From: Gammaproteobacteria bacterium
GTDB taxonomy: Bacteria; Pseudomonadota; Gammaproteobacteria; Xanthomonadales; SZUA-36
DNA: 49,483 nucleotides
NCBI GenBank assembly: GCA_024275935.1
Contig: JAJRYF010000089.1
Location: 1 to 49,483 of the forward strand
Direction of reading: 5' to 3'
The notes under the pieces are model-generated. The model was given only the letters and a program-made list of their open reading frames with translations. It was not told the DNA's origin and did not search any database. Positions 4,487 to 6,797 of the stretch are shown here, one piece after another (positions within the stretch are counted from its first letter, which is position 1; each line of letters begins with the position of its first letter). Both the position numbers and the translations under genes were made by a program.

Positions 4487-5038
4487 ATGTACAGCCAATC
4501 TTCTGAACCGGTGCGCTTTGAGCGCGACTGCGATGTGGTGATGATTCCTACTGGGGATCATCTCAGTATCCCTGCGGGTACTCCTGGGTATATTACCCAA
4601 TCGTTGGGTGGTTCTTTTACGGTTTTTGTTGATGGCAACCTGTTCCGGATTGCCGGTATTGATGCCGATGCCATTGGTAAACAACCAGTGCTACCACCTA
4701 CCCTAGACCTAGATGCCAGTGATACTGATGTTGAGGAACTGATGTGGGCGCAGATAAGAACCTGTTACGACCCCGAAATTCCAGTCAATATCGTTGATCT
4801 TGGGTTAATCTATACCGCTACCTTGAAACGCAGTAAACCCGGTCACCGAAACGCCCATATTCAAATGACTTTAACCGCACCAGGCTGCGGCATGGGCGAG
4901 ATTATTGTTGATGATGTACGCTCCAAGGTGGCCTTGATCCCCACTATCGACAAAGTTGATGTAGAGCTGGTTTTCGACCCCCCTTGGAATACCAGTATGA
5001 TGTCTGAAGTTGCCCGTCTGGAAACTGGTTTGTTGTAA
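4487..5038 (+). CDS. sufT: SufT-like Fe-S assembly protein (MIP18/DUF59)
   Basis: A 183-residue protein with two parts. Residues ~1-75 carry the SufT-specific N-terminal segment (VMIPTGDHLSIPAGTPGYIT). Residues ~85-180 form a MIP18/DUF59 domain with the typical DPEIPVNIVDLGLIY and TAPGCGMGEIIVDDV signatures, including the conserved reactive Cys of PGCGM, and VELVFDPPWN near the end. SufT proteins help mature Fe-S enzymes, particularly under heavy demand or iron limitation. It begins 24 nt after bfr and is probably co-transcribed with it, which fits an iron/Fe-S role. The ribosome-binding site is weak. Confidence 0.85.
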   Translation: MYSQSSEPVRFERDCDVVMIPTGDHLSIPAGTPGYITQSLGGSFTVFVDGNLFRIAGIDADAIGKQPVLPPTLDLDASDTDVEELMWAQIRTCYDPEIPVNIVDLGLIYTATLKRSKPGHRNAHIQMTLTAPGCGMGEIIVDDVRSKVALIPTIDKVDVELVFDPPWNTSMMSEVARLETGLL

Positions 5039-5111: not shown

Positions 5112-5146
5112 TTGACAAATCCCCCCCCCCCCCCCCATGGTAGGGT
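5112..5146 (+). promoter_or_regulatory. Promoter-like region with a poly-C spacer
   Basis: A perfect -35 TTGACA (5112-5117) is followed by AAT, sixteen C and then ATGGTAGGGT. The nearest -10-like hexamer, TAGGGT (5141-5146), is 23 bp away. A tract of about 10 C would bring the spacer to the optimal 17. Variable C or G tracts between -35 and -10 are a known phase-variation device (porA and fetA in Neisseria). The -10 is weak, so promoter status is inference. Confidence 0.35.
5121..5136. repeat. Homopolymer tract of 16 C
   Basis: Sixteen consecutive C in the intergenic region between sufT and a small exported protein. It is the longest homopolymer I noticed in the window and is out of keeping with the moderate GC content. 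Such tracts slip readily during replication and are also prone to sequencing and assembly length errors, so the exact length is uncertain. Confidence 0.9.
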
Positions 5147-5197
5147 TGTTCTGCCAAATGACTTGGCTTTCAATTCAATAGGAATATGGAGATTCAT

Positions 5198-5398
5198 ATG
5201 CGTAAAATTCTAGCTATTGCCGTCGTTATTATCTCGCTGGCGGGTCTTACATTCTCACAAAGTGCCTTGGCCAATCTTTCTACGGTTTGTTTCGGTGGGA
5301 ACCTTTATATGGTTGCTTCCGAACTCAATGATAGTGGTCAATGGGTACAGACGATTACTCTTATCGAAAGTAACTCGCTCCAGTGCATGGTGCTTTAA
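5198..5398 (+). CDS. Small exported protein, unknown function
   Basis: Not a family I recognise. The 66-residue product begins MRKILAIAVVIISLAGLTF, a clear signal peptide, with likely cleavage after ALA at residue 25, leaving a mature peptide of ~41 residues. It has just two cysteines (Cys31 and Cys63), so a single disulfide closing most of the mature peptide is possible. ATG at 5198 is chosen because TGGAGA sits 5-10 nt upstream; ATG at 5186 would add MEIH before the basic signal start. It lies 61 nt downstream of the C16 tract and is followed by a strong hairpin, so it may be a single-gene transcription unit. Confidence 0.6.
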   Translation: MRKILAIAVVIISLAGLTFSQSALANLSTVCFGGNLYMVASELNDSGQWVQTITLIESNSLQCMVL

Positions 5399-5467: not shown

Positions 5468-5502
5468 ACACTGCCCTGGAAGAAACAGCTCCAGGGCAGT
5501 GT
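5468..5502 (+). terminator. Strong hairpin, probable terminator
   Basis: ACACTGCCCTGGA (5468-5480) and TCCAGGGCAGTGT (5490-5502) pair perfectly over 13 bp around a 9-nt loop. Only a weak T-rich tail follows (TATAAAGTTCTGTTT). It lies 70 nt after the small exported protein gene and before the next gene, as expected for a terminator. Confidence 0.6.
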
Positions 5503-5558: not shown

Positions 5559-6083
5559 ATGAAGATACTTTTCAAGATTATTGTATTGGCGCTGGCGCTG
5601 GTATTTACAGCACCTGTGAGTGCTAAAAGCGATATTATCGTTGTTAACCGGTCAGAGCTGGGAAAATACTGGGAGCATAAACGCCCGCGGAAATCGCGTT
5701 CAAACCCGGAAGGGGTAGCGATACTTAGAGTTGAGGTCAAAGGTGCAGAGCGGTTCCATAAAAAAAAAGATAGTTGTGTGGGGTATGTCTATTTAATCAA
5801 TAAAAGCGGTAGTACGGAGGCATTCCGTGTGATTAGTGCATACCCTGATGATAAATTAGTGAAATTTCATGCTCGGAAAGTAAAAGGGTATCGGTTTACC
5901 GCTACCCCGACTAATCCCGAAAAAAAACCAGTCTATACTTATGGTGTTTATACTACCCCCAATGCAAAATCAGTGGCGGTCTTTGAATCTCCAGAGTTTC
6001 GGGAAGCCGTCGAAAGAACCGCCAAAATATGCCGCAAAAGCCTTGATGAATATATCCAGCAGGTATTAACCCAAGCAGGTTGA
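5559..6083 (+). CDS. Exported protein, possible TonB C-terminal-like fold
   Basis: A 174-residue protein with a signal peptide (MKILFKIIVLALALVFTAPV, cleavage near residue 22 after SA). The segment GVAILRVEV... VISAYPDDKLVKFHARKVKG... TPTNPEKKPVYTYGVYT has the strand-helix-strand order of TonB/TolA C-terminal domains (cf. GxVxLxFxI... A...AVkkWrFkPA...GkPV), but no TonB membrane/proline-rich region is present, so it is not a TonB energiser. Two cysteines (in DSCVGY and KICRK) may form a disulfide. ATG at 5559 is preferred to the GTG codons just upstream because it starts the signal peptide directly. The fold suggestion is weak; otherwise hypothetical. Confidence 0.5.
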   Translation: MKILFKIIVLALALVFTAPVSAKSDIIVVNRSELGKYWEHKRPRKSRSNPEGVAILRVEVKGAERFHKKKDSCVGYVYLINKSGSTEAFRVISAYPDDKLVKFHARKVKGYRFTATPTNPEKKPVYTYGVYTTPNAKSVAVFESPEFREAVERTAKICRKSLDEYIQQVLTQAG

Positions 6084-6207
6084 TTTTAACCATGTTAACT
6101 CATGAATGAGCTGGGTCGTTTTTTTCATCGCCCTGAGCCGACACGCGCATCCGTGTGCTCCCCCGGCATTTGTGCTTTCTGCACTGCAAGCGCGAACACA
6201 AAATCAT

Positions 6208-6336
6208 GTCATCCCGGAAGCGCGAGTAGCGCTGTCCGGGATCCAGTTTATTGGAAAGCGGTTGGTTGCCGTGGTCGCTACAGTTTGCCCAACCAGCCTG
6301 GATTCCGGGTTCGGCTATTCGCCGCCCCGGAACGAC
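6208..6336. repeat. REP-like doublet (two inverted 38-nt units)
   Basis: Unit 1 (6208-6245) starts GTCATCCCGG and ends CCGGGATCCA; unit 2 (6299-6336) is the same type inverted, starting TGGATTCCGG and ending CCGGAACGAC. Each folds into a hairpin with a conserved GAGTA/GAATA-type loop, and base changes between the units are compensated across the stem. A nearly identical unit occurs at 26660-26697 in this window. These are the hallmarks of a REP/BIME-type dispersed repeat. The stretch 6084-6451 holds no convincing gene. Confidence 0.8.
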
Positions 6337-6451
6337 AGGGTGGGATTTGCCCCAGACGAAGGTAACGCCACCCCGACGATTGCCAAAAAGATTCTCTTTT
6401 CAATAAAACCTTCCCCATGTTAGAATCCATCCCCCGGCAGTTTTACTTGCC

Positions 6452-6797
6452 GGATTAGTTTCAGGTGATGTTCTGGGTAACCAGACATTGAAACGGGAAG
6501 CCGGTGAAAATCCGGCACTGCCCCCGCAACGGTAAGCGGTGTAAAGCGGTACCGGGAGCCTGTCCGAGAATGAAAGCCTACTGCGAAAAATTCATTTTGG
6601 TCATATTTCCCGTTCATTTTCGTTAAATAGAATGTCTATTTGCCTCAAATGAACGGAAAATCTGCCTCAAAATGACTTTTCCTCGCTACGGCCCTAATTC
6701 TCGGGCAGGCTCCAATGCCACTGTGAGAGATACTTCATGGGAAGGCGTACTGCCAATACATTCATCGCAAGTCCGGAGACCGGCCTGATTTATTGAA
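6452..6797 (+). promoter_or_regulatory. Cobalamin riboswitch (interrupted by an insertion)
   Basis: The conserved cobalamin-aptamer blocks are present in order: GGTGAAAATCCGGCACTGCC continuing into CCCGCAACGGTAAG (about 6502-6536), GCCACTGTG (6717-6725), GGGAAGG (6739-6745) and the B12-box-like AGTCCGGAGACCGGCCT (6770-6786). Adenosyl- or aquo-cobalamin binding normally represses B12-uptake genes, and btuB follows directly. A canonical aptamer is about 200 nt; here it spans ~345 nt because a 159-bp self-complementary element sits between the second and third blocks, in a peripheral variable arm. Confidence 0.93.
6555..6713. mobile_element. MITE-like palindromic insertion within the riboswitch
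   Basis: A 159-bp element bounded by inverted repeats GGAGCCTGTCCGAGAA (6555-6570) and TTCTCGGGCAGGCTCC (6698-6713), matching at 15 of 16 positions. Inside, further nested arms pair (TCATTTTG/CAAAATGA, CCGTTCATTT/AAATGAACGG, AAATAGA/TCTATTT), so the whole element is one long imperfect hairpin. It has no coding capacity, as expected for a MITE or ERIC-like repeat. No clear target-site duplication is visible. Confidence 0.7.

Follow-up and report, generated by a model that had tools for sequence, protein, structure and literature searches.

The locus described here is best explained as a sigma-70-type phase-variable promoter of the kind found at porA and fetA, a reading that we hold to be fairly likely. 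Judging from its sequence, it probably turns an exported product on and off at random. It lies in the window, by which we mean the whole stretch of 49,483 nucleotides that was analysed; the promoter elements, the hairpin and the genes for which coordinates are given below are all on the + strand.

Architecture of the C16 promoter

A perfect -35 hexamer (TTGACA, 5112–5117) is followed by AAT (5118–5120), a tract of 16 C (5121–5136), ATGG (5137–5140) and the -10-like hexamer TAGGGT (5141–5146). A direct reading yields a total spacer of 23 bp and confirms the order of elements given in the first-pass annotation. That annotation had also put the tract length for a 17-bp spacer at about ten C, and according to the coordinates a tract of ten Cs at 5121 corresponds to exactly this distance. 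The run, our proposed slippage site, is the only one of at least 12 C or G in the assembly (2.42 Mb in 155 contigs) and much longer than chance would produce; the second-longest C or G run found on scanning the 49-kb window has a length of 7. TAGGGT scores three out of six as a -10 element and would not be convincing if taken alone. A consensus promoter scan gave no match at the TTGACA at 5112, because the scan does not cover spacers as long as 23 bp. The RNA fold of the antisense G run is ordinary (z = -0.7). The start codon of a peptide gene is located about 50 bp downstream of the TTGACA-C16-TAGGGT arrangement.

Since this is a draft assembly, and long C or G runs are error-prone, the count of exactly 16 C is uncertain. 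The run might even have been miscalled or falsely extended during sequencing or assembly, and a relative (G030) does have artefactual C64 contig ends fused to Illumina adapter. We nevertheless regard an artefact as very improbable: both flanks of the C16 tract are genomic, the run is internal to a contig of 49 kb, no adapter sequence is found next to it, and the synteny of sufT and btuB is the same as in a sister species. An adapter or poly-G sequencing artefact was rejected in particular, as the signs seen in G030 are absent at the window tract. In G030 itself, contigs C230 (L115) and C369 start with a long C run; in C230 it is the C64 run, joined to Illumina adapter-like sequence, which represents assembly contamination in that genome.

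A promoter without a tract was found on contig C139. It consists of TTGACA (L155:11–16), a 16-bp spacer free of long runs, and TAGTGT, and a paralogue of the second gene of our locus (see below) is placed directly behind TTGACAAATGCCCCGAGGGGGGTAGTGTTCTTTTTGCCAAATAACT. The sequence following the tract in the window, GGTAGGGTT-GTTCTGCCAAATGACT, aligns with GGTAGTGTTCTTTTTGCCAAATAACT of C139, with TAGGGT opposite TAGTGT; six of 2000 simple shuffles gave an equally good alignment. TTGACAAAT is identical in the two promoters, and a stretch GGTAG(G/T)GTT...GCCAAAT(G/A)ACT is common to both. This likeness supports the choice of the -35 and -10 hexamers in the first-pass annotation, the poor -10 notwithstanding, and suggests that the spacer in the window grew through C expansion.

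Based on this architecture we propose the following mechanism. The spacer that separates TTGACA from TAGGGT consists largely of the C tract, and slipped-strand replication would lead to the gain or loss of Cs. With approximately 9–12 C (spacer of 16–19 bp) RNA polymerase could bridge the two hexamers, and with other lengths it could not. The assembled 16-C allele with its 23-bp spacer is predicted to be OFF or very weak. The switched product would be a 66-residue exported peptide and possibly also the TonB-C-terminal-like exported protein encoded behind it. We infer the slippage, the ON and OFF lengths, transcription from the C16 promoter and the functions of the products from sequence.

Genes behind the promoter and their neighbourhood

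The peptide gene (5198–5398) starts with an ATG at 5198, is preceded by a Shine-Dalgarno sequence GGAG (5188–5191) and encodes 66 amino acids. The signal-like N-terminus starts with MRKILAIAVVIISLAGLTFSQSALA, ends in ...QSALA and passes our crude signal-peptide rule; about 41 mature residues with two cysteines would remain. Open reading frame, Shine-Dalgarno sequence and N-terminus are all in agreement with the earlier description of an exported peptide of this size, and the gene looks real. The further description as a plausible surface or secreted product goes back to the signal peptide. The peptide is an orphan, with no relatives detected among 101 related genomes, GTDB genome contigs, viral contigs, plasmids, phages, Pfam and NCBIfam, and the DNA of the intergenic region shows no conservation in the family. 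Two stop codons in the frame of the peptide (5141–5143 and 5159–5161) separate the tract from the ATG. Tract length therefore cannot alter the reading frame of the peptide, and a translational (frameshift) switch was ruled out.

The second gene (5559–6083) encodes an exported protein of 174 amino acids counted from its ATG. It has a paralogue on contig C139 (39–40% identity) and distant relatives in the family. The window protein itself matched no Pfam family, TonB_C included, at E-values up to 1. Two of its relatives (28% and 21% identity) matched TonB_C above the gathering score with E-values of 4.6e-14 and 7.4e-9, and the C139 paralogue (39% identity) came just under that score (4.9e-4). 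A structure model of the window protein had a pLDDT of 74.5, and the top 16 Foldseek matches in the PDB were all C-terminal domains of TonB, HasB or FusB. The best of them (6fip, 6i97 and 1u07) had modest E-values of 0.006–0.01. Together with the matches of the relatives, the model points with modest strength to a TonB C-terminal domain fold. A possible third copy of the gene, a weak match at a contig end (G000:C65), has no tract nearby. Downstream of each of the two TonB-like copies there is a similar dispersed repeat with GGGTTCGGCTATTCGCCGCCCCGGAA (window 6135–6360 and L155:1010–1120).

A strong hairpin with a weak U tail (5468–5502, -24.8 kcal/mol, z = -4.8) follows the peptide gene and is a possible terminator or attenuator. 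The C16 promoter may also, or mainly, serve the TonB-C-terminal-like gene; co-transcription of the two genes is uncertain because the hairpin lies between them.

Upstream of the promoter are the genes for bacterioferritin and sufT (4487–5038). Downstream, the exported open reading frame of 174–177 residues is followed by a cobalamin riboswitch (6446–6581) and a btuB-like receptor gene. The sister species G001 and G002 have kept sufT, and tract and peptide are absent from its neighbourhood in both. In G001 the riboswitch and btuB come directly after sufT, and in G002 unrelated sequence is found there. Given these different neighbourhoods, tract, peptide gene and the 177-residue frame would most simply be an addition in the window lineage. 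The missing locus in the sister species also means that there is no orthologous allele series in which tract lengths could be compared.

An orphan peptide at a locus missing from sister species, behind a 23-bp spacer and a weak -10, is also what would be expected if runaway C expansion had damaged an ancestral promoter like that on C139. The tract would then be decayed or neutral, the peptide a chance or dying reading frame, and no switching would occur. We consider this unlikely, as the reading frame is intact with a Shine-Dalgarno and a good signal sequence, and promoters built in this way, complete with -10-like hexamers, are found at several independent loci of the genus.

Promoters with C or G runs in the genus and beyond

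These loci were found in a family-wide scan for TTGACA with a run of at least 8 G or C no more than 13 bp behind it, with the reversed pattern as a control. Nine sites belong to the genus, three in the window genome and six in G001, and the reversed pattern did not occur in the genus genomes. Expressed differently, nine of the 50 C or G runs of at least 8 in four genus genomes lie 0–13 bp after an exact TTGACA, where 0.3 would be expected from the rate at random positions (0.0062). The corresponding binomial P of about 3e-11 overstates independence, since some of the promoters are paralogous and form about four unlike groups, and the true P is weaker. The association of a perfect TTGACA with a C or G run in the genus is not due to chance.

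In the window genome two lipoprotein paralogues have near-identical promoters with runs of G10 and G9. In G001, runs of G9, G10 and G14 are found with the members of an exported protein family whose leaders are similar, and a C11 promoter (TTGACA-A-C11-TATGC-CATGAT) has a 17-bp spacer. Nearly all genes behind the run promoters of the genus encode signal-peptide proteins or lipoproteins. The poly-G promoters (L173, L174, L175, L177, L178 and L179) and the C11 promoter (L180) share with the window a perfect -35, a run in the spacer, a -10-like hexamer and a downstream gene for a signal-peptide protein or lipoprotein. In contrast to the window, where a C run close to the -35 is part of a 23-bp spacer, most of them have a G run abutting the -10 and a spacer of 19 bp. 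As in other spacer-tract promoters, the homopolymer in the window (C16) reaches the 8 or more C or G needed for slippage and lies between -35 and -10, the latter weak and matched by C139; with one genome per species, length differences are found between paralogous promoters only. The phase-variable promoter proposed in the first-pass annotation is strongly supported by the same-genus promoters and by C139 in its architecture, in the position of the tract and in the predicted export of its product; the switching itself is inferred.

Several further features were noted around these promoters. ACCGGACATATTATGTNNTACTAACA is a dispersed element with 12 copies, confined to the genus (G000–G003, L228–L239) and found nowhere else in the family. 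Several poly-G promoters have it on their upstream side, as do some unrelated genes (by eye, an ATPase, an Lrp-like regulator and a parDE-like pair), and it resembles the border of a mobile cassette or repeat. The poly-G exported proteins at L145 and L178 (G001), and also at L175, L180 and L181, have a common N-terminal part and divergent C-terminal parts, and a second, membrane-anchored or exported protein is often encoded behind them; such arrangements are reminiscent of polymorphic effector/partner pairs. A conserved leader hairpin (GCGGTA-AGGA-TGCCGT) followed by a T run is located just after the poly-G promoter at L173, L174 and L181, with a counterpart in another genus (GCGATA-AGGA-TATCGT), and is a possible attenuator. 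In G001:C62 (L176), TTGACA-G8-TAGTCTATTATTT is apparently broken just downstream by what, by eye, looks like an IS66-type end (GTAAGCG...).

Across the order (398 genomes), TTGACA-N0-13-G9 occurred at 26 sites in 19 genomes, compared to two genomes for the reversed pattern, although some of these G9 sites are embedded in long open frames and probably represent chance matches. The C-run version was not enriched in the order (6 forward against 4 reversed sites), so the orientation seen in the window is the less common and less secure of the two. L379 (G061:C186:7874), from a different family within the order, has TTGACA-CG-C11 about 50 bp before the gene for a small exported protein (about 70 residues) that contains Cys, a window-like layout with no evident sequence relation.

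We also scanned 84,980 bacterial species genomes for TTGACA-N2-14-G9-TANNNT and obtained at least 84 readable sites (L263–L342 as a sample). The matches listed span Clostridia, Bacilli, Spirochaetes, Saccharibacteria, Alphaproteobacteria and others. Among these 84 the most frequent spacers were 19 bp (31 sites), 18 bp (16), 16 bp (9) and 17 bp (7), followed by 15 and 20 bp (6 each), whereas tract-free promoters at the same loci peaked at 17 bp (Fisher P = 2e-6 for 17 against 18–19 bp, among the matches listed). An exported-protein reading frame, called by a crude signal-peptide rule of our own, started within 250 bp of 55 out of 76 G-run promoters listed (72%); the corresponding share was 10% for tract-free promoters and 8% for random positions. 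The 23-bp spacer in the window is outside the range of nearly all listed G-run promoters, and the window promoter could therefore be dead.

It is conceivable, if somewhat doubtful, that the window locus belongs to a very widespread and largely unrecognised promoter class of many phyla, with a C or G run in the spacer, devoted to exported proteins and lipoproteins, and with assembled spacers mostly of 18–19 bp, exceeding the 17-bp optimum by one or two bases. The G-run spacers of this length may either be mostly-OFF alleles or reflect a shifted optimum for G-run DNA. If such a class exists, its members would either need just one or two slips to become fully active or would follow the shifted optimum.

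Comparison with known systems

In Neisseria, the length of a homopolymer between -35 and -10, poly-G in porA and poly-C in fetA, sets the hexamer spacing and with it the transcription of envelope proteins (PMC5320596, PMC7864442). The window likewise has a homopolymer in this position, here read from sequence alone, but differs in its perfect -35, its longer run, its products and its uncultured-looking relatives. Treponema pallidum tp0126 also contains a poly-G run between -35 and -10, and the optimum distance is 17 for both porA and tp0126 (PMC7864442). In tp0126, however, the run is G on the coding strand, where the window has C, and the product is an OmpW homologue, unlike that of the window.

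As an alternative to a simple change in hexamer distance, a C run beside the -35 could alter the binding of a regulator or of the polymerase, as in opc or the fim promoters of Bordetella. The fim2, fim3 and fimX promoters have a fim box and are BvgA-dependent. Their long C run, of up to C19, changes transcription (PMC1891110) and is comparable to that in the window. The C run begins 1–3 bp after TTGACA in both the window and the sister C11 promoter, and the 18–19-bp peak of the G-run promoters listed is unlike a plain 17-bp rule. However, neither a fim-type element nor any other activator site was recognised at the window locus, and a perfect -35 favours direct recognition by sigma-70. We consider altered binding quite unlikely and prefer switching by spacer length.

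Most known examples of promoter phase variation through homopolymer slippage come from host-adapted pathogens. A likely case in an obscure genome, together with several sister promoters in the genus and a broad sample of lookalikes from other bacteria, suggests that exported proteins are commonly switched at random far beyond the pathogens, and that a simple sequence pattern is enough to catalogue such switches. Whether G-run spacers of 18–19 bp are poised in the OFF state or represent the actual optimum for such DNA also becomes a testable question.
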